From positions 1-46,197 of the forward strand of contig JAUSFL010000009.1 in assembly GCA_030649735.1 (NCBI GenBank): 46,197 bases of DNA, read 5' to 3'. The notes under the pieces are model-generated. The model was not told where the DNA came from. It saw only the letters and a list, made by a program, of their open reading frames with translations, and ran no database searches. A program made the translations under genes and the position numbers. Below, one piece after another: positions 7,145-46,197 of the stretch; the first letter of the stretch is position 1; each line of letters opens with the position of its first letter. Origin of the DNA: Candidatus Iainarchaeum sp. (lineage in GTDB: Archaea; Iainarchaeota; Iainarchaeia; Iainarchaeales; UBA10191).

Positions 7145-7290
7145 TTATAAGCGGTTTCAGCCGCAAACAATGCAGTTGTTAGTCCCTCACTAACCCAAAG
7201 AAACTCCAAAGGGGCAGCCGGCCTTGATGGCCTGGCTGTTTTCCTTTCTAGCTAGCTGGGTTTGGGGGGGAATGATTGGAGGAATGTTTT
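7145..7290 (+). ncRNA. Promoter and structured 5' leader of the DUF2318 gene
   Basis: A TATA box, TTATAAG (7145-7151), predicts transcription from about 7172. That leaves a leader of roughly 119 bases, long for this mostly leaderless genome. The leader can form GTTAGT/ACTAAC (7178-7183, 7189-7194). It can also form a strong hairpin, CAGCCGGCC / GGCCTGGCTG (7215-7238), with loop TTGAT and a T-rich tail that looks terminator-like. A G-rich stretch precedes the GGAGG site. Attenuation, a riboswitch or a short separate RNA are all possible; I match it to no known class. Confidence 0.5.
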
Positions 7291-32761: not shown

Positions 32762-33337
32762 ATGGGACTCAATGATTTTTTAAAGCAAAACTCTTTCGAA
32801 CTGGTGCGCAAAATCGCGCACGGGTATTCGAGCGAGGTTTTTCTGGCAAAGCACTTGCCTTCAGGCAATCTTTTCGCCTTGAAAGTCGAGAAGGAAAAAT
32901 CACGCCGCGTGAAAATGCTTGAAAAAGAAGCCGGAAATTTGCTTTTGGCAAACTCTGAAGGAATTGGCCCCAAGCTTTTCGCGTTCGATCCAGTGGAGCG
33001 CATTGTCGTCATGGAATTCATTGATGGAATTCCATTCAACAAATGGCTGGAGAAAGGGCCTTCAAAAAAACAGCTCGCGCTTTTTGTGAAAAAACTTCAG
33101 GCGCAGGCAAAAAAACTCGACTCGCTGAGCCTTGACCACGGCCAGCTTGCTGGAAAGGGAAAAAACATTCTTGCAAGAAAAGCCGGAAAAAACTTTGAGC
33201 CAGTGATTGTCGATTTTGAGAAAGGCTCGCAGTGCAGGAAATGCCATAATTTTTCGCGGCTTGACGGTTTTTTGTTCAAGAATCCAAAAAGTTTTGTCAG
33301 CAGGAAAGTAAAGCAAATTCTGGAAATTCAGGAATAG
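32762..33337 (+). CDS. Small Ser/Thr protein kinase-like protein (COG2112-like)
   Basis: A 191-residue protein kinase fold. The N-lobe shows the glycine loop region RKIAHGYSSEVFLA and the lysine in FALKVEKEK. The hinge is VVMEFIDGIPFNKWL, the catalytic loop HGQLAGKGKNIL takes the place of HRD/HGD, and VIVDFEKGS stands for DFG. This minimal pattern matches archaeal COG2112 kinases. It may autophosphorylate or act on unknown partners in the cytoplasm. It is 43 bases from the zinc-ribbon gene and 43 before a pilin-like gene. Confidence 0.78.
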   Translation: MGLNDFLKQNSFELVRKIAHGYSSEVFLAKHLPSGNLFALKVEKEKSRRVKMLEKEAGNLLLANSEGIGPKLFAFDPVERIVVMEFIDGIPFNKWLEKGPSKKQLALFVKKLQAQAKKLDSLSLDHGQLAGKGKNILARKAGKNFEPVIVDFEKGSQCRKCHNFSRLDGFLFKNPKSFVSRKVKQILEIQE

Positions 33338-33380: not shown

Positions 33381-34385
33381 ATGAATTCTAAAGGCCAGCT
33401 TAGCTTTGACTTGATTTTTGCGGTATTGCTTTTCCTAACCGCAACTCAAATAATACTTTCAATGACGCAGGGGTTTGAGGAATCGCAAAAGCAAATTGCA
33501 GCCCAAAACCAGCTTCGCGGAATCTCCGAAAGCTTTGCCTCAAAAATTTCGCAAACATCCCTGCTTCCAAATTCTGAAGTCAATTTCCAGACCCCTTACA
33601 TAATGCTTGCCGGCTCCGGGCTTAACGACTGCAATATTCAAATGAGCAAGAAAGAAGAGCCGCTTCATTCTGTTGAAGTTTCTGTTGAAGTGCTTTACAG
33701 CGTTTATACGGGAAGCGTAAGCAAGGAAGAATTAGTGTCTTATTGCGTGCAAAATGGCTGGCTTCCTAAAATAAAAGTGACCGCGGGAAAAGGCGCTTCG
33801 CAAGTTTTTGATTCAAAAACTTTTGATTTGGACTTTGTTGACGGAGTGCAGAAAAAAATAGCAATGCTTAATCTTTCTCAAGCAACTTGGATTGAGCTGG
33901 AGTTTTTGGGCGATTGCGCCGGAGGGCCTCCAAACCTTGGAGGAAACGCAAGCACTGACTTAAGCCTGAAAAAAATGATTGTTACTGGAGTGATTTATGA
34001 CTTGGGCAATTATTACATGCCTTGTTCTGGCGCCGGACATGCAGGCTGCCCTGGCCTACTGCAAGTTTCATTAAGCAGCCAGCCTAATTGCAATTCAAGC
34101 AATGGTTTGTATTCTTGCAGAGCTAACCAAACCTGCCCTGGCGATTGGATTGCGTCAAATTCAGACAGGTGCTGCAATACAACATGCTCTGATTCCGGTG
34201 AAGTGCAGGCTGACTACATTTCCGCCGGAACTGTTTCCAAAAGAGCGAGCGTTTCAGTCCCTTTGAAAGTGAGCGATGAATTGGTTGACGGGATTGGCAA
34301 TCCTGTAAGCGGTTTTTCTTTCTCTTGCGGCAGCAAAGTTACTTGCGTGCAGGGAGCTTCAGGAATTTCCTGCATTAAAGGGTGA
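33381..34385 (+). CDS. Class III signal (pilin-like) secreted Cys-rich protein
   Basis: A 334-residue protein from ATG 33381 (GTGGAG ahead). The N-terminus NSKGQLSFDLIFAVLLFLTA carries a class III signal with cleavage expected after Gly, an acidic residue at +5 of the mature form, and a hydrophobic helix. The large outer domain is beta-rich with many cysteines (CSGAGHAGCPG; CRANQTCPGD; RCCNTTCSDSG), so disulfide-bonded. Its stop is 7 bases from the KaiC-like gene. It resembles the start of the pilin operon at 40-45 kb and is probably a minor pilin or surface protein. Confidence 0.75.
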   Translation: MNSKGQLSFDLIFAVLLFLTATQIILSMTQGFEESQKQIAAQNQLRGISESFASKISQTSLLPNSEVNFQTPYIMLAGSGLNDCNIQMSKKEEPLHSVEVSVEVLYSVYTGSVSKEELVSYCVQNGWLPKIKVTAGKGASQVFDSKTFDLDFVDGVQKKIAMLNLSQATWIELEFLGDCAGGPPNLGGNASTDLSLKKMIVTGVIYDLGNYYMPCSGAGHAGCPGLLQVSLSSQPNCNSSNGLYSCRANQTCPGDWIASNSDRCCNTTCSDSGEVQADYISAGTVSKRASVSVPLKVSDELVDGIGNPVSGFSFSCGSKVTCVQGASGISCIKG

Positions 34386-34392
34386 TTTGAAA

Positions 34393-35172
34393 ATGCCGAA
34401 CAAGTCCTTGATTGAACTGGAAAGCCTCTTGAAAATTTCCGGAAAAAAAGACATTCCAAAAGACCTCGCCACTTACAGGACTCCTTCAGGAATTCACGGC
34501 TTTGACGAAATGGTTGAAGGCGGTTTTGAAAAAGGCTCGGTGAGCTTAATTGTCGGAGTCCCCGGCTCTGGAAAAACAACCTTTGCCTTGCAATTCCTGT
34601 ATTACGGCGCTTCAGTATTGAAAGAGCCTGGATTGTTCATTACTTTTGCGGAAAGCAAGGAAAGCATTTACAGGCATGCGTTGAATTATGGGTGGGATTT
34701 TTCAAAGCTTGAAGAAGAAGGATTATTCCAGATTCTGCAGTTCAAGCCGCATCAAGTCACTGGATTGATTGAGGAAGGCGGCGGCTCAATAAAGGACGAG
34801 ATTGAAAGCCTGGGCGTGAAAAGAGTCGCAATAGACAGCATTACCGCATACACCTTGCTTTTCAAGGACGAGTACCAAAAGCGCGAAAGCATTGTCTCTT
34901 TCATTGACAGGCTGCACGAGTGGAACTGCACTTCAATGATCATTTCAGAAATGCCGCCAATGATTTCTGAAACAAAGGAAGGCAGCATTGGATTCCTTTC
35001 AGACTCAATCATTGCATTGCATTATTCAAAGCCAAAAAACTCCGCGGACAGGGTGCACAGCATTGAAATATTGAAAATGCGCGGAACAAGGCATTCCACC
35101 AGAGTGTGCAAAATGGAGTTTGAAAAAAACGGGATTTCAATCTATCCGGAAATTGAGCCAGAGCATTATTGA
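34393..35172 (+). CDS. KaiC/RadA-superfamily ATPase
   Basis: A 259-residue single-domain RecA-fold protein. Walker A is GVPGSGKTTFA (about residue 56) and Walker B is RVAIDSITAY. C-terminal motifs ILKMRGTRHSTRV and a PEIEPEHY end are like archaeal KaiC-family ATPases. ATG 34393 is preferred over TTG 34387 because AGGGTG is 8 bases away. Its relatives include ArlH of the archaellum and gas-vesicle GvpD. The pilin-like gene upstream suggests a role in regulating or driving surface-filament assembly, but it lacks the secretion-ATPase domain of ArlI/PilT. Confidence 0.85.
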   Translation: MPNKSLIELESLLKISGKKDIPKDLATYRTPSGIHGFDEMVEGGFEKGSVSLIVGVPGSGKTTFALQFLYYGASVLKEPGLFITFAESKESIYRHALNYGWDFSKLEEEGLFQILQFKPHQVTGLIEEGGGSIKDEIESLGVKRVAIDSITAYTLLFKDEYQKRESIVSFIDRLHEWNCTSMIISEMPPMISETKEGSIGFLSDSIIALHYSKPKNSADRVHSIEILKMRGTRHSTRVCKMEFEKNGISIYPEIEPEHY

Positions 35173-35263: not shown

Positions 35264-38200
35264 ATGAATTTTTTTGTAAAAGGCTTGGTTTTGGCTGGGT
35301 TTTTGTTTTTTGTACTTCCTGTGCTGGCAAATGCTTCTTGCGGAAGCCTTGCCAGTGGCCAATATTACTTGCTTAAAGTACTTCCAGGAGACCCTAGCCT
35401 TTGGGTGAATAATCAAACTCCATTTATAAATCCCTCATTCGCGTATGTTGATGAATTGTTCACTTATTCAATTCAAGGGATTGCAAACAGGCAGGGGCCT
35501 TGCCTGTATGTTGAAAGAAACAACGCCTGGCCTGAAGGCGGGGATTATACTTTTAATTGGGAAAAGGTTTTGGCAGACGATCCAGACATTGGGGTTGTTT
35601 CAGGAACAAATTTCCAGCCAGTAATTGTCCAGCCGGAAAACATTTTTGCAAAAGCAAAAGATTTGGGAGTTATAAAGTACTTTTTTTGGAATGTCGAAAC
35701 TGGAGTTTCAACAAACAATTGGGACTGGATAGATGTTAGAAGCAGCCCTGCAAGAATGGCTGCTTTCTCTTATGCTGGGGCCAAAAGCGCGATTGCAATC
35801 CCTTATGTTAAACGAGGAGGCCTGAACAATCTTGCAGTCAACATCAAAAACCCAAGCACAATGATAAATTTCCAAACAATTGAAGAATTAAAAGCATACC
35901 TTGATGCATTGGGATTTTCCCAAGCACAAACTGACTGGAGTGCTTTTGAAAATGAAGTAATTGCCTATTCAACAGGCCATAATGAATTTGAAGTCAAAAC
36001 GCACGCTTACAACTGGCTTGTTCAAAACTGGCTGAATAATTCTTCTTTTGGCTTGAGCAAGAATTATTTCTGCTCTTTAGGAATCGGTGCTGATGACCAA
36101 TGCGTTGAAAACAAGGCTTTTGCCTTTTTCCTTAACTATTGGCCAAATCAACCTTGCACTTTAGCAAGCAATCAGTGCAGGATAGCATATTCTCTTTCAA
36201 ACTCAACAAGCTTTACTGATAAGGCAAAAGACCATGAAATGGCAGAGTTCATTCTCTTGCAATCCTCAAGCAATGCGACTGTTTTTGGCTGGAGCAATTC
36301 AGAACCGTGGTTTGCTTTCACTAACGCAAAATTCGGGCATGTTACCTCGCAAACAGGCGGGTTTAATTTCAGTTTTATTTCAAAAATTCCAGTAATAAGC
36401 CCGCAATATTTAATAGCACCTCAGCCAAGCACTGCCTACCAGTATGATGAAGGCAAATACTATTCTGGAATAATGGTTGGCGACTCATCATACGCTAACG
36501 GCGCAGGAACAATGTTTTACGACTCTTTTAGCATAAATGGCTCTGGAGTCGGAAGCTTTACAACTACAACAAAACTCAATTGGGGAATAGACTCCGCATT
36601 TTATGACCGCGCGCCAATCCTGCTTGCATATTATTTCAAAAAGGCAAGACCTGGTCTAGACTTGATTCAAGCAGGAATTAGCGGAGACTACTTTTTCGCA
36701 TTGGCGGTTGCAAAATTCAAGGGAATGCAGTCCCTTGATGCAATACTGCAAAAAAACAAGACCAGAATTCAAAATTCAGGAATGAGTTTTTTCGCAAACC
36801 CTTGGGATGGCTTTGATGAAGGTACAGTCGATCGTGAGCCTCCTGCTAATCCAAACGATTATGGATTGTCGCAAAGCTACTATCAAACAAACTGTTCATT
36901 CAGCCAGCAAGTATACACGCAATATTACCTTACTCTTGGAGTGAAAAACGCGTTTCAGGGGGCAGATGCTGGATTTAATTGCATTAGCCCTGAAAGCCCA
37001 GTATACACTATAGGCACTGGACCTTCAAAAACCACTGTAATTTCCAGGACTGCGCGCGCTGACTTTTTTGGCTTCAGTCCGAACACAACAGCAGAATTTG
37101 ACTCAAAATTCACTACTTTCAAAAACAACTACAATATCAAGACTCCACTGATGTGGTTTACTGGCTTAATTCCTGAAACTTCAACAAATCCTGGAATGAC
37201 AAGTACAAAATTAAGTCAAATTGAACAAAACCATCCAGAATTGAAGTTTGTTTTGCTTGACGAGCTTTATTACATGGCAAACATGCTTTACAACAACGAA
37301 ATCCAAAACCCGACTTTTGCAGATTCTGCAACGCCAGTCTGGAATTTTTCATCAGCAGACGCGTCAATCGCGGCTTCAGACTTTGCAGACAGCAGCGGAA
37401 AGTCATTAAAGCTGAATAATTATTCTTTCGCTTTCCAAAAGCCACAGGCATTAACGAGCGCCAGCGGGAAAAAATTCAAGCTGACTTACTGGGCAAAAAA
37501 AACAAACTCCAACTGCACTCCGTTTGTTACAATCCAAGAGCTTCCAAGTTGGAGTGGAAAAGCAACCCAATACATTGACTCAACAAGCTGGAAGCAATAC
37601 TCTTTGATTTTCACATTGCAAAGCAACAACGAGCACATAGTGACTCTTGCAACAGCAAACCAGGATGCAGGCAAAGGAACTTGCGCCTTGCTTGATGACG
37701 TGCGCTTGGCTGAAACCAACGAGCAATCAGAAATCTGCAGTAACGGAATCAACGATGATGGCGACGGCTTGATAGACTGCGCAGACTTCACAGACTGCCC
37801 AACAGGAACTGTCTGCGGAACAAACAAAACATGCAATGCAAGCAGGCAATGCGTTGACGTTGTAAGAACGCTAGCAGATCCAGACTTGAGGCTTTACATG
37901 CCTTTTGAAACAGACGTTAAAGATTACTCAGGAAACAACCATGATGGAGTTTTGGTTCTTGGAAGAACAATCAACGATGTCGTATTGTCTGACGCGCAAA
38001 GGGGCAAAGTGCTTTCAGTCAACAGTTCATTGCTCAATTATGTCAAGGTCTCAAACAGTTCTTCACCTGGCAATTCTGACTTTGCATTCGGGCAAAGGCA
38101 AAATTTTACGATAATGTTCTGGGGAAAAGGCGCCGCGGGCGCGCAGTTCGTTTTGGCAAACGCTTACCATGACACCGGGCCTGGATTTGGCGCTTACAGG

Positions 38201-40066
38201 GACGGATCATACATTACTGAAGGCTCAACTGATCACGTTGCGCCTTGGGACAGCCCGCCCCCAAAACTGGCCGGAAGCCCATGGCTTGGAAACGTCGGGC
38301 CTGGAGGAACTCCTTGGACTTGGATGGACAGCGCTTGGCACCATGTTGTTTACACTGTAGAAAGAGACCAGGCAAGCCCGCAAGCCTGGGTAAAACTTTC
38401 AACAATTATTGACGGGGGATTAGCATCAACTGGTTCAAGAAATTATTCAGTGTCATACCCTAATGGCTGGACTCCGGACTTGGACCAGGAGACAATTAAT
38501 GCAACTCCAATCCGCGACTTGATAATCGGCGCGGGATATAGCACTGGACAGGTAGCTGGACAAAACAGCATCAGCTTTCCTTATTTTGGAAGCCTTGACA
38601 ATGTAAGAGTTTACAATAGGCTGTTGACGCTTGCTGAGATCCAAAAAATTTACAATGAAGAATTAAACCTCATTGGCCCAGTGCGCTCTGATGGAACTCC
38701 AACAGGCACATTGCCTTCTGCAGCCCAGGCAACAATAAGCCTTTTGACAAATGTTCCGGCGACTTGCAAATATTCAACAACTGCTGGAAGTTGGGATCCA
38801 ACAAAAGAAAGCCTTGACAACATTTCGCCAACCTATCATTCAAAACTTGTGAATGTTACTGCTGGAGTGAATACTTTTCATATTATGTGCCAGGACACTT
38901 CAAGCCCTGCAAAAGTCAACACCACTGATTTTACAATTTCCTTTACAGTGACTGCGCCTCCGGCTCCGGTTTGCGGGAATGGAGCAATTGATGCTGGAGA
39001 GCAGTGCGACGGCGGCATTGGCTCGCAAACTTGCCCCGGATTTAATTCAAACTTTGTTGGCGGAAGCTTAAGTTGTAATGCCGCAGGAAGCCCTAATGAA
39101 TGCACTTTCAACACTTCAAGCTGTGTTTGCAGCAGTTGCGCACCCGCGGTCTGCAGCCATTCGCCATTGCAGAATGGAAACTGCTGCTGGAACACTAATG
39201 AAATAATAAAAGATGACTTGGATTCTGCACTTGCAATAGTCAATGACGGGTGGTTTAGGTTCTTGTGCCATGACGGCCAAGTTTTCGTCCATGACGGAGT
39301 CAATGAAGGCACAATAAGGGTTTCAGAATGCACTGTCAAAGGGCCTTTTTTTGCGTTTCCAAATTATCCCGATGCTGAATGGGAAGGTGGCTGGAGATCT
39401 GGAAATGGAGAAGGCATTGTTTGCGATACTGGAAAAACCTGCCAGTCTGGAGCTTGCGCTGCAACGCCGGGCTGTACTTTAAATTCTGAGTGCACTACTC
39501 AAAATCCGGCATTGCCAAAATGCAAGACAAGCCCATTGCCAGGGGAATGCGTGCAATGCCTGGCAACTCCTGACTGTGGTTCAGGATATATTTGCGTTAG
39601 CAATTCTTGCGTTCTAAACCGGGTTGGAATTGTGCAGCAGCCAAAAATTTTAGAGATTGTTTTAGACCCGCAGGCCCCAAACACTGAAGAGAAACTGAAT
39701 GTTTTTGTGAAAGTAAAAAACTTTTCTGCAAGCGATGCTGACTTGAAAATAAATGCATACATTACTGGGTTTGTCAGCAGGTATGATCCAGAACATGATT
39801 CAAAAACAGTTCCTGCAGGAGAATCAGCAGACTTCCGCATTTTTGGATTCATTTACTTAAACATGTGGGCAATTTTCAATGAAGGAAAAGTCTACTCCAT
39901 TGTCGTAAAATTGGAAAAGCCTGACGGCACTGTTTTGGACACTGCTGAAAAACAGTTTGGGCTGAAAATGCAGCAAAAAAGCGTTCCTGAAGCAAGCCCG
40001 ATTCTTGCTGTTGTTGTCTTGGTTTTTGTTTTAGGGCTTGTTTACTGGAAAAAAAGCGAAAATTAA
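35264..40066 (+). CDS. Giant secreted multidomain surface protein (GxGYxYP-like, LamG, Cys-rich repeats)
   Basis: A 1600-residue protein. Signal peptide MNFFVKGLVLAGFLFFVLPV precedes ANASCGS. The N-terminal part (about 25-680) resembles GxGYxYP glycoside-hydrolase-like proteins (TYSIQGIANRQGPCLYV; DEGTVDREPP). A jelly-roll CBM-like segment (about 685-820) is followed by SNGINDDGDGLIDC, a LamG domain (about 870-1130), a DUF4215-type Cys repeat (CGNGAIDAGEQC), further Cys-rich segments and an Ig-like domain. The C-terminus is VPEASP, one membrane helix and KKSEN, resembling an archaeal sorting signal. It probably binds or degrades surface polysaccharide. The enzyme activity is inferred. Confidence 0.75.
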   Translation: MNFFVKGLVLAGFLFFVLPVLANASCGSLASGQYYLLKVLPGDPSLWVNNQTPFINPSFAYVDELFTYSIQGIANRQGPCLYVERNNAWPEGGDYTFNWEKVLADDPDIGVVSGTNFQPVIVQPENIFAKAKDLGVIKYFFWNVETGVSTNNWDWIDVRSSPARMAAFSYAGAKSAIAIPYVKRGGLNNLAVNIKNPSTMINFQTIEELKAYLDALGFSQAQTDWSAFENEVIAYSTGHNEFEVKTHAYNWLVQNWLNNSSFGLSKNYFCSLGIGADDQCVENKAFAFFLNYWPNQPCTLASNQCRIAYSLSNSTSFTDKAKDHEMAEFILLQSSSNATVFGWSNSEPWFAFTNAKFGHVTSQTGGFNFSFISKIPVISPQYLIAPQPSTAYQYDEGKYYSGIMVGDSSYANGAGTMFYDSFSINGSGVGSFTTTTKLNWGIDSAFYDRAPILLAYYFKKARPGLDLIQAGISGDYFFALAVAKFKGMQSLDAILQKNKTRIQNSGMSFFANPWDGFDEGTVDREPPANPNDYGLSQSYYQTNCSFSQQVYTQYYLTLGVKNAFQGADAGFNCISPESPVYTIGTGPSKTTVISRTARADFFGFSPNTTAEFDSKFTTFKNNYNIKTPLMWFTGLIPETSTNPGMTSTKLSQIEQNHPELKFVLLDELYYMANMLYNNEIQNPTFADSATPVWNFSSADASIAASDFADSSGKSLKLNNYSFAFQKPQALTSASGKKFKLTYWAKKTNSNCTPFVTIQELPSWSGKATQYIDSTSWKQYSLIFTLQSNNEHIVTLATANQDAGKGTCALLDDVRLAETNEQSEICSNGINDDGDGLIDCADFTDCPTGTVCGTNKTCNASRQCVDVVRTLADPDLRLYMPFETDVKDYSGNNHDGVLVLGRTINDVVLSDAQRGKVLSVNSSLLNYVKVSNSSSPGNSDFAFGQRQNFTIMFWGKGAAGAQFVLANAYHDTGPGFGAYRDGSYITEGSTDHVAPWDSPPPKLAGSPWLGNVGPGGTPWTWMDSAWHHVVYTVERDQASPQAWVKLSTIIDGGLASTGSRNYSVSYPNGWTPDLDQETINATPIRDLIIGAGYSTGQVAGQNSISFPYFGSLDNVRVYNRLLTLAEIQKIYNEELNLIGPVRSDGTPTGTLPSAAQATISLLTNVPATCKYSTTAGSWDPTKESLDNISPTYHSKLVNVTAGVNTFHIMCQDTSSPAKVNTTDFTISFTVTAPPAPVCGNGAIDAGEQCDGGIGSQTCPGFNSNFVGGSLSCNAAGSPNECTFNTSSCVCSSCAPAVCSHSPLQNGNCCWNTNEIIKDDLDSALAIVNDGWFRFLCHDGQVFVHDGVNEGTIRVSECTVKGPFFAFPNYPDAEWEGGWRSGNGEGIVCDTGKTCQSGACAATPGCTLNSECTTQNPALPKCKTSPLPGECVQCLATPDCGSGYICVSNSCVLNRVGIVQQPKILEIVLDPQAPNTEEKLNVFVKVKNFSASDADLKINAYITGFVSRYDPEHDSKTVPAGESADFRIFGFIYLNMWAIFNEGKVYSIVVKLEKPDGTVLDTAEKQFGLKMQQKSVPEASPILAVVVLVFVLGLVYWKKSEN

Positions 40067-40121
40067 ATCCGGCAAAGGCTTTTTAAGTAAAGTTTTAATA
40101 TTGCCAGTCCTTATTTTTAAC

Positions 40122-42029
40122 ATGCGTTCCTTAAAAGGCCAGGCTTCGGTCGAGTTCTTGGTCATAGTCATTGCAGGCTTGATTTTGATTGGAGTAGTGG
40201 CTTTCTTTCTTTTCTCGCAAAAAGGCGGTGTTGGCTCGCGGTCTGAAATAGACTCTGCACAGCTCATAGTGAATGATGTTTCAAAAGCAGCGGATGATGT
40301 TTTCATTCAAGGCCCGGGAAGCTCGAAAAAAATTCAAATAACAGTTTCTGAAAGCACTGACTTGAACAATTCAGGAATTCTTGAAAAAACAGTTTTTTTA
40401 AGCCTGCAGGGAACAAGGGTCTTTTCAAACTCCAAGGTAAAAATGACCGGAAGCTTTCCAAAGCAAAAGGGATTCCAGGACGTTTTCCTGAACGCAAGGG
40501 CAGATTATGTTTTTGTGGGAGAGTCAAGGATTTTTTTAAGCCAGTATTTCATATTTGCAGAATTGGTTCAAGGCGACAATGCTTCAGAATCAATTGTTTT
40601 AAGGAATGAGGGAAATTCTCCCTTGACGGTTCAGGTAAGCAAGGAATTTGACTCTTCAATCGTTTTCTTGGAAGTTAATTCTTCAAATTTTTCATTGGCT
40701 TCAAAAGAGTCAAAAACCATTGTGCTGGATTTTACCGCAAGGCCTTTGGGATTGGGCCAGGCTTCAGGAAAACTGAACATTCAAGTTTCAGGGAACGATT
40801 ATTCTGAAAAAGCAGTGATTCCAATCACTGTTTCAGTAAAGGCCTCAAAGGCAACTGCTTCAGGCTCTTTAAGGATTATTCCAAACTCTTGGACTGCCTC
40901 GCTAAAGTCGGGGGAAAGCGTTTCAAAAACATTCAAGGTCTGCAACCAGGCAAATTCAACTTCGGGCGCCGTAAATTTCGCAAAGCTTGAAATCTTTTCA
41001 AAAGAGCTCCCGAGGACTGAGGGCGGAATAGTGTGGAGCGTTTTTGAAGACAATGACTTCGTGTATGCCGGAATGCAGGACGGCGGAATTAATGTCTGGA
41101 TGAAAGACCTTACTTTTTTCAAGAAAGTTTCTGAAACAGCAAGCGCGATAAGGGCGGTTGCAAGCAATTCTGACTTTGTTTTTGCGGGCAGTTCTGACGG
41201 GAACGTTTACGTGCTTGACAAGGAAGACTTTTCACTGAAATCAGTTTTGGTTGGAAACTCAGGCCCGATAACAAGCCTTGCCATTGACGGCCAAAGAATT
41301 TACGCGGGAACCTCGTCCGGAAAAATAATCATTTGGGACAATTCAGCATTCAATCAATTGGCGAATTTTTCAAATTCGGCAGAATCAGTGAATTCTTTAA
41401 GCCTTGGCAGCGACAGCATTTTTGCGGGCAGTTCTGACGGGAACGTTTACGTTTGGAAAAAATCAGACCTTTCTTTTGAAAGAATCCTGGCCCAGCCATC
41501 ATCGCCGGTGAATTCGGTTTTTGCAGACTCTGACTTTTTGTTTGCCGGAACCCAGGACGGAAAAGTGTTTGTTTATTCGCTCAGCGACTTTTCATTGGTA
41601 AACGTCATTTCAAAGTCATTGAACAGCATAAAGCAATTGTACTCGAGCCCTGCGGGGAATTTTTTGGCAGTGGCAGCGGCCGATTCGGGAGTTTATTTTT
41701 TCAGCAGGCCTGAATTCATTGAAACATTCAATGCTTCCGCAGGCAAAATGATGCAGGGAGTCTACGGGAATGAGGGCACAGTGCTTTTGGGAACCGGCGA
41801 TTCTGAAGTTTTTGCAATAAACTACAGCGAGTTCGTCAGCAAAATCGCGTCCTATTGGATTAATGACCTGCAATCGCTTGATTCAATTCCTGCGCAATCA
41901 TGCAGTGACAAGAATTTCACAATAACCATTCCGCCATCAATGACTTCAAACAGTTTTTTCGGCGACTTGAACATAAACAGTGCGGACGAGGGATTTGATG
42001 TCCTGCAAATTCAGGTTAATGTTGAATGA
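40122..42029 (+). CDS. Pilin-like protein with Ig-like domains and inserted beta-propeller
   Basis: A 635-residue protein. ATG 40122 follows TATA-like GTTTTAATATTG by about 25 bases. Class III signal MRSLKGQASVEFLVIVIAG has Gly-Gln cleavage and Glu at +5, followed by the pilin helix. Two Ig-like domains of the CARDB/NEW3 type follow. Residues about 300-576 are seven repeats of about 40 residues with the pattern 'FAGSSDGNVYVW', i.e. a WD40-like seven-bladed propeller. The Ig-like strands resume after it and end in FDVLQIQVNVE, matching the next protein's end. So the propeller sits inside a loop. It may be a binding tip on a filament. Confidence 0.82.
   Translation: MRSLKGQASVEFLVIVIAGLILIGVVAFFLFSQKGGVGSRSEIDSAQLIVNDVSKAADDVFIQGPGSSKKIQITVSESTDLNNSGILEKTVFLSLQGTRVFSNSKVKMTGSFPKQKGFQDVFLNARADYVFVGESRIFLSQYFIFAELVQGDNASESIVLRNEGNSPLTVQVSKEFDSSIVFLEVNSSNFSLASKESKTIVLDFTARPLGLGQASGKLNIQVSGNDYSEKAVIPITVSVKASKATASGSLRIIPNSWTASLKSGESVSKTFKVCNQANSTSGAVNFAKLEIFSKELPRTEGGIVWSVFEDNDFVYAGMQDGGINVWMKDLTFFKKVSETASAIRAVASNSDFVFAGSSDGNVYVLDKEDFSLKSVLVGNSGPITSLAIDGQRIYAGTSSGKIIIWDNSAFNQLANFSNSAESVNSLSLGSDSIFAGSSDGNVYVWKKSDLSFERILAQPSSPVNSVFADSDFLFAGTQDGKVFVYSLSDFSLVNVISKSLNSIKQLYSSPAGNFLAVAAADSGVYFFSRPEFIETFNASAGKMMQGVYGNEGTVLLGTGDSEVFAINYSEFVSKIASYWINDLQSLDSIPAQSCSDKNFTITIPPSMTSNSFFGDLNINSADEGFDVLQIQVNVE
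41179..41212 (+). repeat. 34-bp exact direct repeat, copy 1 (propeller blade)
   Basis: This copy is identical over 34 bases to 41419-41452. It encodes FAGSSDGNVYV, the loop and strand of one blade. The 240-base spacing equals two blades, which suggests recent duplication or gene conversion inside the propeller. Confidence 0.9.
41419..41452 (+). repeat. 34-bp exact direct repeat, copy 2 (propeller blade)
   Basis: Second copy of the 34-base stretch at 41179-41212, in the same reading frame two blades further on. Confidence 0.9.
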
Positions 42030-42065
42030 TTCTTTCCACAAAGCGTTCAAAAAAAGGTTTTTGTC

Positions 42066-43109
42066 TTGAGGTTGAGAAGAGGCCAGTCCAGCATTGAGTT
42101 TCTCATAATTCTTTCATTTTCCCTGATTGCTTTTGCAGGAATTGTCTTTTTCACTAACGCGCGGATTGGCTCATTGAACAAGTCAGTCAACGAGCAGGTT
42201 GCAGAGCAGGCAGTCAGCCTTGTTTCAGCATCCGCAAAGGATGTTTTTCTCCAAGGCGAAGGCTCTGAAATGCTGGTTTCCTTCAAAGTCCCGGGCGGCA
42301 TTGACGCTTCAGGCTCTGGAGTGAAGGACAATTCAATAATTTACAAAGTCAACAACACCGCGTTTTTCAAAAGCCTTGACTTTAACCTGGAGGGAAGCCT
42401 TCCATTAAAGCAGGGGTTTTCAAGCGTTCGCGTTTTCTCAAAAGGCGGAATTGTTTTTGTAAGCCCTGCCTGCGTTTTTGCGGACAAGACAATGCTTTCT
42501 GAAAAAATCCACCAGGCCAGCGGCTTTCAGGATTCCATAGTCTTGAAAAACAATTCATCAAGCGATGTTTTTGTGAGAGTTTCAAAAACCCTTCCTTTTG
42601 AAGACATTTCCCTTGTTTTCTCAAACAGCGAGTTTGACTTGAATTCAGGAATTTCGCAAAACATTGACTTGCTTTTTTCCGCAAAGCCGACTGCTTCAGG
42701 AAATTATTCCGGAAAAATTTCAGTCGCGACAATCAATGAAGACTGCGCTGGCTCTTTTGAAATCCCGTTCATTGTGAATGTTTCAGGGACCGGGGTTTTA
42801 AGCGTGTTCCCGTCAAAAATTTCCGGCGATTACTCCAAGGGAAGCTTTCACTCAATGCAATTAAGCATTTGCAACAATTCGCAGGAGACTTTGGCAAATG
42901 TTTTTTCAGAAAGTTCAACAGGCTCTCCTGGAGAATGGTTTTCTGAAACAGCGCCAATAGAGCAATTGCCTCCAGGCTGTGCCGAACGGACTGTTGAATT
43001 CTCAATACCAAGCAATGCTTCAGGGGCATATTCTGGCTTCTTAAGCTTCACTGACAATTCAAACCTTGCAAGCATTGACTTGAACATTAATGTGCTGGAG
43101 GAAGGCTGA
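42066..43109 (+). CDS. Pilin-like protein, second in the operon (no propeller)
   Basis: A 347-residue protein starting at TTG 42066 with AAGG about 8 bases ahead. Class III signal RLRRGQSSIEFLIILSFSLI: cleavage after Gly, Glu at +5, then a membrane helix. The outer part has two Ig-like domains (FQDSIVLKNNSSSDVFVRVS; YSKGSFHSMQLSICNNSQET) ending in NLASIDLNINVLEEG. It is collinear with the 40122 protein minus the propeller, so the two are clear paralogues. Its stop and the next ATG share one base (TGATG). Confidence 0.82.
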   Translation: MRLRRGQSSIEFLIILSFSLIAFAGIVFFTNARIGSLNKSVNEQVAEQAVSLVSASAKDVFLQGEGSEMLVSFKVPGGIDASGSGVKDNSIIYKVNNTAFFKSLDFNLEGSLPLKQGFSSVRVFSKGGIVFVSPACVFADKTMLSEKIHQASGFQDSIVLKNNSSSDVFVRVSKTLPFEDISLVFSNSEFDLNSGISQNIDLLFSAKPTASGNYSGKISVATINEDCAGSFEIPFIVNVSGTGVLSVFPSKISGDYSKGSFHSMQLSICNNSQETLANVFSESSTGSPGEWFSETAPIEQLPPGCAERTVEFSIPSNASGAYSGFLSFTDNSNLASIDLNINVLEEG

Positions 43110-43501
43110 TGAATTCCAGGGCGCAAGTGACTGCCGAATTCCTTGTAGTGATCATTGCATTGCTTTTCGTGCTGAATTTCGCGTTTGGCATTTACTCAAG
43201 CAATTTGCGGCTTTTCTCGGACTTCGCGCAAACTTCTGAAATGAAAATTTCTGCGGCAAACATCGGCAATGCACTTGACTCAGTGCTTTTTGCAGGCAAT
43301 GGCGCAAGCGCGGAGTTTCTTTTTGAAAGAAAGCTTGACTATAACGCGGGAGTTTCAGGAAGCATGCTTTCATTAAGGTCAAAGAACGCGCTGGTTGACT
43401 TTCCGCTTTCAACAAGCGACATTGACTTTTCAAGTTTTGAATTCAACAAAAAACTGAAAATTTCGAACAATCTTGGAAGAGTGGTGGTTGAGAATGCCTG
43501 A
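43109..43501 (+). CDS. Small pilin-like protein, third in the operon
   Basis: A 130-residue protein with N-terminus MNSRAQVTAEFLVVIIALLF: a class III-like signal (Arg-Ala-Gln, Glu at +5, then a hydrophobic helix). A short beta-rich outer domain follows (SAEFLFERKLDYNAGVSG; DFSSFEFNKKLKISNNLG). It may be a major or minor pilin. It overlaps the gene before by 1 base and the one after by 8, so translation is coupled. Ala instead of Gly at the cleavage position is unusual. Confidence 0.75.
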   Translation: MNSRAQVTAEFLVVIIALLFVLNFAFGIYSSNLRLFSDFAQTSEMKISAANIGNALDSVLFAGNGASAEFLFERKLDYNAGVSGSMLSLRSKNALVDFPLSTSDIDFSSFEFNKKLKISNNLGRVVVENA

Positions 43502-43997
43502 GTTCGGCAAAAAAGGCCAGATTTTTTCCGCTGACGCCTTGCTTGGAATGATTGTCTTCCTTTTCGCATTAAGCATTGTCTTCTATTATTTCGGGCAAAT
43601 TTCTGAAAGGGACAGGGCCTTCACTGAATCTTTCGAAATGAAAACAATCGCTTTCAATTCATTGAGCTCGCTTGTTGAAACAAAAGGCGCGCCTGAAAAC
43701 TGGGAGTTTGCAGAAATCCAGGACGCAAAATCTTTCGGTGTTTCTTCAGAACGCAATGTTCTCTCGCCTGAAAAGCTTGAAAAATTCGGCGAATTCACAT
43801 TGCAGGACGCGAATTCAGTCAGGAAAACCCTTGGCTTGGGAAAGTATGATTTTTCTTTCAAAATTTCAGACTTTAATGGAATCGAGGTTTTTTTGGCAAG
43901 CTCAAGCAATTCAAGCAAGTCTGTCTCTTTCAAGACCTCGAGGATTTCACTGTACAATGGAAGCCCGGCAATTGTTTCGCTCGAGGTGTTCAAATGA
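43494..43997 (+). CDS. Pilin-like protein, fourth in the operon
   Basis: A 167-residue protein from ATG 43494, within the 3' end of the previous gene. Signal EFGKKGQIFSADALLGMIVF (Gly-Gln, Asp in place of Glu near +5) is followed by a membrane helix, then an outer domain with NWEFAEIQDAKSFGVSS and KTSRISLYNGSPAIVSLEVF. Its stop overlaps the next start (ATGA). The family is inferred from signal and context. Confidence 0.75.
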   Translation: MPEFGKKGQIFSADALLGMIVFLFALSIVFYYFGQISERDRAFTESFEMKTIAFNSLSSLVETKGAPENWEFAEIQDAKSFGVSSERNVLSPEKLEKFGEFTLQDANSVRKTLGLGKYDFSFKISDFNGIEVFLASSSNSSKSVSFKTSRISLYNGSPAIVSLEVFK

Positions 43998-44422
43998 ACT
44001 CTCGCGGTTTTGTGATTTCTTTTGACGCAATCCTTGCGTTATTCGTCATTTTTGCGTTCTTGATTGCCTCATTCTCATTGATTGCAGGAATTGACGAAAC
44101 ATCATACAACCGGCTTTTCTTGAAGAATTTTTCGCTTGATGTCTTGACAGTGCTTGAAAAGTCTGGAAAATTGGCTTCTGCGGCTTCATCAGAAGACACT
44201 GAACCATTGGATTCTTTCCTGAACCGCCTGCCTTTCTCGTACTGCGCGAGAATTGACATTTTAGAGCAGGGCTCGTCGCAAATTTTCCTGACTGCCTCCA
44301 GGGCTTCCTGCACGAACCCGCCGCAAAACTCTTTCCTTGCAAGAAGGTTTTTTTCCGCAAAAACAGGCAATGCCACAATATACTACAATGCTGAATTGCG
44401 GGCCTGGATTTCTGGTGATTGA
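43994..44422 (+). CDS. Pilin-like protein, fifth in the operon
   Basis: A 142-residue protein. N-terminus MNSRGFVISFDAILALFVIF: an Arg-Gly cleavage-like site, Asp near +5, a hydrophobic helix. The outer part contains two cysteines (PFSYCARIDI; RASCTNPPQN) and ends YYNAELRAWISGD. It overlaps the upstream gene by 4 bases and is followed 1 base later by the next start. Probably a minor pilin. Confidence 0.75.
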   Translation: MNSRGFVISFDAILALFVIFAFLIASFSLIAGIDETSYNRLFLKNFSLDVLTVLEKSGKLASAASSEDTEPLDSFLNRLPFSYCARIDILEQGSSQIFLTASRASCTNPPQNSFLARRFFSAKTGNATIYYNAELRAWISGD

Positions 44423-44423
44423 A

Positions 44424-45302
44424 ATGTTTGGAAACAATGAAGGACTGCGGGGAATTGGAAAAAAAGGCTTTTTTCTTTCTGTCTCGATTTTCATGATTGT
44501 AATGTTTGCATTGCTTTTCTCGCAGCAATTCCTGCACAAGTCCCAAGGCTTTGAGAATTCTTTCTCGGAAAGGTTTGCGCTGCAAAAGGCCGCGTTTGTT
44601 TCCGACAATGTCTCAAGCCAGGCAGCGGCCTTGCTTGGCGCAAAAGTCGGTTTTGAAGATTCGCCAGCCTCTTCAATCGTAAGGGTTTCTTCAGGCATTC
44701 CTTGCGGGGCGAGTGCTTCAGGGCTTTCAGGCTTCAAGAGCTTTGTTGAAAATGAAGTTTCCCAACTTAACAATTCCCAATTGTCGATTGACTTTTCAAG
44801 GCTTTCCGGAGGAAAGCAGGAATTGCTTTTCTCAAACGGCCTGCAAATGGACTGCAATAATTCTTCAGGCAATTCCCTGGAGTTTTATTCAACCAATGAT
44901 TCTTCAATGCCGTTGGTTTTTGACCTGAACATTGAAGGCACTGGATCCTTGAATGATGTTGCTGCATGGCAGTGGCAGCCTTCAGGGGATTTGGAAGTGA
45001 GAATTCACTACAAGGATTCAACAATCACTTACATTGGCTCTGGAAAAATAGACGCAAGCATTGAGAATTCCTTTCGCTTCAATTATTCCGGCGGCTCATT
45101 GAAAATCACTGCAGGCTCGTTCAACGGGCATTCCAAGGCATTAAAGATTGAAATTGACAATGACGCGAACGTTAGCGCGGCAATTGTTTCAAGGATTTCT
45201 CTCCCCCAGCAGGAAAAGCCAGTCGCGTCTTATGACGCAAGCACATCGTTCAAGCAGGCCGGCGTTGAAAAAACCTCAAGCATTGAGCCATTGCAGGACT
45301 AG
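44424..45302 (+). CDS. Pilin-like protein, sixth and last in the operon
   Basis: A 292-residue protein; ATG 44424 lies one base after the previous stop. Signal GIGKKGFFLSVSIFMIVMFA: Lys-Lys-Gly, then a hydrophobic helix. The Glu at +5 is missing. A beta-rich outer domain follows (GFEDSPASSIVRVSSG; FRFNYSGGSLKITAGSFNGH; IEIDNDANVSAAIVSRIS). The lack of Glu5 is typical of tip or initiating minor pilins. It ends the operon; an AT-rich 84-base gap follows. Confidence 0.72.
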   Translation: MFGNNEGLRGIGKKGFFLSVSIFMIVMFALLFSQQFLHKSQGFENSFSERFALQKAAFVSDNVSSQAAALLGAKVGFEDSPASSIVRVSSGIPCGASASGLSGFKSFVENEVSQLNNSQLSIDFSRLSGGKQELLFSNGLQMDCNNSSGNSLEFYSTNDSSMPLVFDLNIEGTGSLNDVAAWQWQPSGDLEVRIHYKDSTITYIGSGKIDASIENSFRFNYSGGSLKITAGSFNGHSKALKIEIDNDANVSAAIVSRISLPQQEKPVASYDASTSFKQAGVEKTSSIEPLQD

Positions 45303-45386: not shown

Positions 45387-45806
45387 ATGCAAAAAAGGTT
45401 TTACTTGGACACTGCAATTTGGCGCGATTATTTCGAGGACAGAAAAGACTGCATCAGGCCTTTGGGCGAGTTTGCTTTCCAGTTCTTGAGAAATTGTGAA
45501 AAGCAAGGCTGCATGGCTTTATATTCAAGCCTGGTTGTGCAAGAGTTGAAAACAGATTATTCCCAAGAAAGAATTAGTGAAGTTTTCACTGCATTCAATC
45601 GGATTCTTGTTGAGGTCCAAATTTCTGGCGCGCAGGTTTCTGAAGCGAGAAAGATTTCAACAAATGTGAAAGAAACTCACTTGAAAGACGCCCTGCATGC
45701 AATCTTGGCCAGAGACAACAAAGCCGTAATGATTACCAGAGACCGGCATTTTGAAGTATTGTCCAATATTGTGGAAGTTGCAAAGCCAGAAGACATTTAC
45801 TTTTGA
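45387..45806 (+). CDS. PIN-domain ribonuclease, VapC-like toxin
   Basis: A 139-residue PIN domain starting at ATG 45387 with TATA-like TTCTTTTTAAATTG about 28 bases ahead. Acidic active-site residues are visible: Asp8 in FYLDTAIWRDYFEDR, the middle Glu in SSLVVQELKTDY, and the C-terminal ETHLKDALHAILARDNKA plus TRDRHF. It probably cleaves RNA when free. Its 3' end overlaps by 10 bases the 3' end of an opposite-strand RHH antitoxin-like gene, an unusual arrangement for a toxin-antitoxin pair. Confidence 0.8.
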   Translation: MQKRFYLDTAIWRDYFEDRKDCIRPLGEFAFQFLRNCEKQGCMALYSSLVVQELKTDYSQERISEVFTAFNRILVEVQISGAQVSEARKISTNVKETHLKDALHAILARDNKAVMITRDRHFEVLSNIVEVAKPEDIYF

Positions 45807-46090
45807 GCGAATTTCTTCTCAAGCATTTCAATGTATTCTTGCCCGGCTTTTTCAGTTAGTTTCCTGAATTCTTCATCAGTCTTTGCCTTGCCTTTTCCCT
45901 TGAATATTCCCCTTGCCGCGTAAAGCGCCTGCCAGCCTTTCTTTCTTTCTCTTTCTTCAGCAAGCTGCTTTAGCTTGTCCCTGATGGACTCCCTGATGAA
46001 TTCTGTTTTTGTTGAATACTTGAATTCCTGCATGTCTTTCTCAATCTGCCTTGCAAGCGCGGAATCCAGCCTTACGCAAATGTTTTCCAT
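45797..46090 (-). CDS. Ribbon-helix-helix (VapB/CopG-like) antitoxin
   Basis: A 97-residue protein from ATG 46090, preferred over an ATG 9 bases upstream because it fits the RHH start. The ribbon is ENICVRLDSALARQIEKDM, then helices YSTKTEFIRESIRDKLKQLA. The Lys/Glu-rich tail (GIFKGKGKAKTDEEFRKLTE) would mask a toxin. It binds DNA as a dimer and probably represses its own gene at the dyad just upstream. Confidence 0.82.
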   Translation of the reverse strand: MENICVRLDSALARQIEKDMQEFKYSTKTEFIRESIRDKLKQLAEERERKKGWQALYAARGIFKGKGKAKTDEEFRKLTEKAGQEYIEMLEKKFAQK

Positions 46091-46094
46091 ACAA

Positions 46095-46124
46095 TACAAT
46101 GTAATGCATTGTAATATTTAAAAA
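46095..46124 (-). promoter_or_regulatory. Promoter and operator of the RHH gene
   Basis: The inverted repeat TACAATG-N5-CATTGTA (46095-46113) lies just upstream of the ATG. A TATA-like CTTTTTAAATATTAC on the minus strand (46110-46124) adjoins it, a typical autoregulation layout for an RHH antitoxin. Confidence 0.65.
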
Positions 46125-46197
46125 GCTTTGGGAATGTTTTTGGAATTTCACCCCGCCGCCAGAGTGGGGCGCAACTTGCCTGCGGGCTTTCTTTTTA
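46125..46197 (+). other. GC-rich stretch at the right edge, unresolved
   Basis: The last 73 bases include CACCCC/GTGGGG and GCC/GGC pairings and end in a T-run. They could be a terminator or part of an RNA gene continuing outside. I see no reading frame. Confidence 0.2.

Follow-up and report, generated by a model that had tools for sequence, protein, structure and literature searches.

What does an archaeal pilin do with a β-propeller? This question is raised by a contig of Candidatus Iainarchaeum sp. (C16; 46,197 bases, hereafter the window), one of 51 contigs that make up the 1.28-Mb metagenome-assembled genome of this small Diapherotrites archaeon. Six consecutive open reading frames at 40122-45302, designated P1 to P6, each start with a class III signal, and the first of them encodes a protein with a seven-bladed WD40 propeller. 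We favour the reading that P1 belongs to an archaeal type IV pilus as a modular pilin in which the propeller serves as an exposed binding module, and put its probability at roughly 60%.

A WD40 propeller inserted into the first of six pilins

The six genes are arranged as follows (^, predicted cleavage site; acidic residues numbered from the start of the mature protein):

40122..42029, forward strand: P1, pilin of 635 residues, MRSLKG^QASVEF, with helix, beta domain, first immunoglobulin (Ig)-like domain and a second one split by the propeller
42066..43109, forward strand: P2, pilin of 347 residues, TTG start codon, RRG^QSSIEF, with a P1-like N-terminal part and two unsplit Ig domains
43109..43501, forward strand: P3, pilin of 130 residues, SRA^QVTAEF, Glu5
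43494..43997, forward strand: P4, pilin of 167 residues, KKG^QIFSADAL, acid at position 6
43994..44422, forward strand: P5, pilin of 142 residues, SRG^FVISFDAI, acid at position 6
44424..45302, forward strand: P6, pilin of 292 residues, GKKG^FFLSVSI, no acid at position 5 or 6, candidate tip subunit by analogy with GspK

In all six proteins, and likewise in a further pilin upstream, P0 (33381-34385), a short basic leader ending in glycine or alanine is followed by glutamine or phenylalanine and a hydrophobic helix. Together with one further gene at 7276, these are the 8 of the 45 likely genes of the window that passed a simple test for a class III motif plus a hydrophobic stretch. The P6 site, KG^FF, was set by hand to fit the orthologues; the motif script had placed the cut four residues earlier. 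The Pfam family Pilin_N has no match anywhere in the genome, so that P1 to P6 fall into another, KGQ-type group of pilins. The initial annotation described six class III signal proteins in a row whose genes overlap or abut. The row of six holds, as does the tight spacing from P2 to P6, while a gap separates P1 from P2 (intergenic distances from P1 to P6: +36, −1, −8, −4 and +1 base pairs (bp)).

P1 itself is divided as follows:

40137..40310, forward strand: N-terminal pilin helix, residues 6-63 (AlphaFold2, 10-sequence alignment)
40323..40541, forward strand: small beta domain, residues 68-140 (alignment and AlphaFold2 model)
40551..40841, forward strand: Ig-like domain 1, residues 144-240, ASH/Cep192-like (Pfam and AlphaFold2 model)
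40857..41000, forward strand: first half of Ig-like domain 2, with Cys274 (alignment and AlphaFold2 model)
41022..41873, forward strand: seven-bladed WD40 propeller within Ig-like domain 2, residues 301-584 (Pfam, Protein Data Bank (PDB) sequence matches, repeat scores and AlphaFold2)
41874..42026, forward strand: second half of Ig-like domain 2, with Cys594 (alignment and AlphaFold2 model)

The propeller was recognized by several approaches. Pfam WD40 matches P1 with 66 bits against a cut-off of 27, and a sequence search of the PDB aligned residues 301-584 with both designed and natural WD40 propellers. The seven repeats gave a mean blade-to-blade score of 24.7, compared with −17.1 ± 2.1 for shuffled sequences. 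When the segment was folded alone by AlphaFold2 without an alignment, its four-stranded repeats closed into a predicted seven-bladed wheel (predicted local distance difference test score, pLDDT, 77; predicted template modelling (TM) score, pTM, 0.78) with 27 strands, in which the last blade's closing strand could not be placed with confidence. The nearest natural folds are seven-bladed WD40 proteins, for example WDR61 (TM-score 0.83/0.85) and G-beta (about 0.83). Blades 1 and 7 were poorly defined in the full-length model and became resolved when the propeller was folded by itself; probably, a misaligned tryptophan and the lack of propeller homologues in the alignment account for this. Pfam, repeat scores and structure prediction thus concur on the seven-bladed WD40-like propeller that had been proposed from the DNA alone.

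The propeller lies inside an Ig-like domain. In the full-length model, the two halves of Ig domain 2 (residues 250-293 and 593-634) flank the propeller, and P2 as well as the eight relatives aligned with P1 have no propeller insertion. Alignment and model therefore agree with the earlier proposal that the propeller sits in an Ig-like domain and is missing from the neighbour P2. P1 has only two cysteines, Cys274 and Cys594, one on either side of the insertion. Since both align with the conserved cysteine pair of Ig domain 2 in the relatives, the interrupted domain is probably held together by a disulfide.

A pilus locus conserved across the order

A search of the order, represented by 75 genomes, yielded strong matches to P1 (E<1e-40) in 24. 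A first contig scan with P1 alone as the query did not recover any relative; the full alignment of P1 contained no stretch of sufficient conservation for scanning, and a narrower one gave eight named loci. Where the contigs reach far enough, the relatives share the order KaiC, P1, P3, P4, P5, P6, PilB with an N-terminal extension, TadC and TadC, and the genes of the operon are orthologous between genomes (phmmer). The same operon, which the initial annotation had suggested looking for in relatives, is thus present order-wide and combines KaiC, PilB and two TadC proteins with five pilins, one of them large and four small. Matches of the relatives' pilins to the Pfam family Class_IIIsignal lie under its curated cut-off. 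Note that two public records, JAFCCH010000001 (L071, titled Thaumarchaeota) and JAFCBY010000079 (L073, titled Candidatus Falkowbacteria), carry this Diapherotrites locus; they fall within the order and look mislabelled.

PilB and both TadC proteins of the present genome are encoded on another contig, C26, and are orthologous to the products of the genes directly downstream of the pilins in relatives (PilB, E=8e-230). The pilins are thus accompanied by a PilB-type ATPase and TadC, as is characteristic of archaeal type IV pili, and a pilus without an ATPase of its own was rejected once PilB had been found on C26. The window ends with a PIN/RHH toxin-antitoxin cassette (45390-46133), whose RHH gene and end of the PIN gene recur at the start of C26 (L066 5186-5573). 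This copy comprises 388 bp and is 94% identical, which indicates that the assembly probably broke at the duplicated cassette and that C26 comes next after the window. The genome furthermore contains two prepilin-peptidase genes.

The small pilins differ in a regular manner. In the mature proteins, P1, P2 and P3 have a glutamate as residue 5, P4 and P5 carry their acid at position 6 instead, and P6 has none. Across the order, the same holds for P1 and P3 (Glu5), P4 and P5 (acid at 6) and P6 (none at either site), and because it is conserved the pattern looks like specialization. GspK lacks Glu5. It has been proposed to reside at the filament tip (PMC8179133), and in bacterial type IV filaments each Glu5 forms a pair with the N-terminus of the subunit beside it (PMC10191384). 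By this analogy, P3 to P6 probably represent a set of conserved minor pilins that would form a tip complex, with the acid-less P6 at the tip.

Upstream of P1 the window contains the following genes:

33381..34385, forward strand: P0, seventh class III pilin, 334 residues, MNSKG^QLSFDL, upstream of the KaiC gene
34387..35172, forward strand: KaiC-like ATPase, companion of the pilin operon across the order
35264..40066, forward strand: surface protein of 1600 residues between KaiC and P1, with a C-terminal transmembrane segment and weak matches to GxGYxYP glycoside hydrolases and laminin-G

A shorter counterpart of P0 lies at the same position in G001, a genome of the same genus, and in both genomes it is preceded by a small protein-kinase-like gene (32762-33337 in the window). 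The KaiC and P1 genes are adjacent in G001, so that the 1600-residue gene is either an insertion in the present genome or has been lost from G001. About 40 bp ahead of the P1 start, the AT-rich sequence CTTTTTAAG (40076-40122) looks like an archaeal TATA box, and P1 to P6 may thus possess their own promoter.

These neighbours bear on a different explanation, namely that P1 is a surface protein with a class III signal that is not part of a filament and handles substrate in the manner of the Sulfolobus bindosome, with a sugar- or peptide-binding or even enzymatic propeller. Substrate-binding proteins of the bindosome use pilin-type signals, and the weak glycoside-hydrolase-like and lectin-like matches of the adjacent 1600-residue protein would suit such a role. 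However, that gene has no counterpart at the relatives' loci examined, whereas the P1 gene is found throughout the order in a constant arrangement with the genes of four small pilins, of PilB and of two TadC proteins, and P1 has the kind of N-terminal helix, with Glu5, that filament subunits typically show. We consider a bindosome-type function unlikely.

According to the pilin reading that we prefer, P1 would be processed by a prepilin peptidase and its N-terminal helix would anchor it in the filament or at the tip. A stalk would consist of the small beta domain and the two Ig domains. The propeller would be exposed, being inserted in a loop of the outer Ig domain, where Cys274-Cys594 probably staples it. 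PilB and the two TadC proteins encoded on C26 would assemble the filament, and KaiC probably regulates the pilus. The propeller itself most likely binds something outside the cell.

Distribution and possible role of the propeller

Two of the 75 genomes of the order have the propeller, the present one and G001, where a two-N assembly gap removes about one blade. Between these two species, the propeller reading frame is intact, the sequencing gap aside, with dN (nonsynonymous substitutions per site) of 0.36-0.50 and dS (synonymous substitutions per site) of about 2 or saturated; values for the pilin part are similar. Since dN lies well under dS, the propeller is under purifying selection within the genus. 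This argues against a further alternative, in which P1 is a major or body pilin of the usual kind and its propeller a neutral addition with hardly any use. Such a view could draw on the restriction of the propeller to one genus and on the propeller-free P2 right beside P1, but dN of the propeller is as low as that of the pilin part and the frame has been kept in both species; we regard it as very improbable. P1 and P2 are each present in both species of the genus and form two well-supported pairs in a tree, which does not settle where these pairs belong among the other P1 proteins, including whether they are each other's closest kin.

A propeller search of 389 genomes returned many WD40 and PQQ proteins. 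Among the readable open reading frames at those loci, none has a clear pilin signal at its start except one in G076, a genome of the same class (L050 6172-7341, reverse strand). It encodes a protein of 390 residues that combines a pilin-like N-terminal helix of another type with WD40-like repeats and may be a propeller pilin of independent origin. The DNA read around it showed no recognizable gene for PilB or TadC.

In most relatives, P1 has a length of 507-1631 residues, of which the first ~350 can be aligned while the remainder is divergent. Pfam assigns laminin-G/ConA-type lectin domains to P1 of two genomes (four stretches in G066, one in G009), MG2 (macroglobulin) domains to that of G040 and a PKD domain to that of G044; in others Pfam found no recognizable module. 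The present genome has a second pilus locus on contig C49 (L143 4858-6503; L067 72-3463). Its small pilins repeat the acid pattern (E5, D6, D6, none), and the third, P5-like one, with 812 residues, bears a VWA domain. It had been named as a sign against the initial annotation if relatives with the same pilins lacked the propeller and it was not expressed. The outcome among the relatives is mixed: most are without it and several carry other modules on the same pilin, while G001 retains it under purifying selection.

With other binding domains on the same protein in relatives, the propeller probably acts as an exchangeable adhesive part of the pilus, and the exchange of modules between lineages suggests a lineage-specific target. 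It also bears on the idea that the propeller is structural, packing between subunits or docking the pilus to the surface layer without any external target. Surface-layer proteins with β-propeller and PKD domains have been reported for DPANN archaea (PMC5498576), and a loop insertion tied at both ends could suit a rigid packing element. On the other hand, unrelated modules on the same pilin of relatives, including several with a lectin or adhesion character, fit changing targets better, and we have little confidence in a purely structural role.

Weighing against a pilin with an exposed binding module are the confinement of the propeller to two genomes of one genus, one of them with a gap, and a physical join between the window and C26 that is no more than likely. 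In addition, propellers have many uses and the fold alone does not imply adhesion. The initial annotation called a filament displaying a propeller a strong candidate for adhesion or host recognition. The propeller-displaying pilin is well supported; adhesion is the best-supported guess for the propeller's role, because relatives equip the same pilin with lectin-like modules and with others of a binding type. A host is one conceivable target, but a glycan, a particle or the surface layer of the cell itself is just as conceivable.

Comparison with known pilus systems

Most DPANN archaea are believed to rely heavily on other cells, and how they recognize them is mostly obscure. An order-wide pilus locus in which one pilin carries a lineage-varying module provides a small number of candidate binding proteins that can be tested. 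For DPANN archaea, secreted surface proteins have been reported to contain propeller and PKD domains, and proteins with laminin-G to be encoded close to pilus loci (PMC5498576). The archaeal loci of Makarova et al. 2016 and the DPANN pilin islands (PMC4858521, PMC6393860) resemble the locus studied here in their PilB and TadC genes, several class III pilins, a large putative adhesin and a nearby KaiC. They differ in that the candidate tip adhesins of Makarova et al. carry DUF2341, and that text mentions neither a propeller nor Diapherotrites.

The modular-pilin principle, that is, a pilin part joined to a domain not specific to pili, applies to P1 with its WD40 propeller and is thereby extended to archaea. 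So far it has been surveyed in bacteria via the bacterial signal motif IPR012902, with >1,200 modular pilins (PMC8179133). In Streptococcus sanguinis, PilB carries a vWA module, which mediates adhesion, and PilC a ConA-like lectin module (PMC8179133). As in P1, a bulky non-pilus domain is attached to a pilin, and vWA and lectin domains also occur on pilins of the present genome and of the order. In the bacterium, however, the module lies behind the pilin part, whereas here an archaeal class III pilin has Ig stalks and a propeller within an Ig loop.

The initial annotation took a filament displaying a propeller to be undescribed. This is incorrect for bacteria, where PilC/PilY1 (PMC8179133) and PilX2 (PMC12206443) precede it. 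PilC/PilY1 tip proteins carry a β-propeller (PMC8179133), so that here, too, a type IV pilus presents a propeller, with PilY1 thought to be at the tip. PilY1 is itself no pilin and its propeller belongs to the family IPR008707, while P1 possesses both a pilin helix and a class III signal; the PilY1-type propeller family is not among the best 25 of the 48 Pfam matches. The open-licence papers searched contained no archaeal propeller pilin of the WD40 type within an Ig loop. What appears new is the occurrence in archaea, the WD40 type of the propeller and its insertion in a loop.

A parallel exists in Saccharibacteria, an ultrasmall, host-dependent lineage. Their minor pilin PilX2 bears a hepta-bladed propeller and is needed for normal host binding, which its deletion roughly halves (PMC12206443). 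It is bacterial, its propeller consists of C-terminal RCC1-type repeats and it has no predicted PilD signal, whereas P1 has a WD40-type propeller inside an Ig domain and a clear class III signal. Tentatively, and with less than even odds, we suggest that Diapherotrites possess one conserved pilus whose first pilin exchanges its binding module by lineage to suit partner or substrate. In the genus studied here this module would be the WD40 propeller, which would make the pilus the first in archaea to bear a propeller and provide an independent parallel to PilX2 of the equally small Saccharibacteria.

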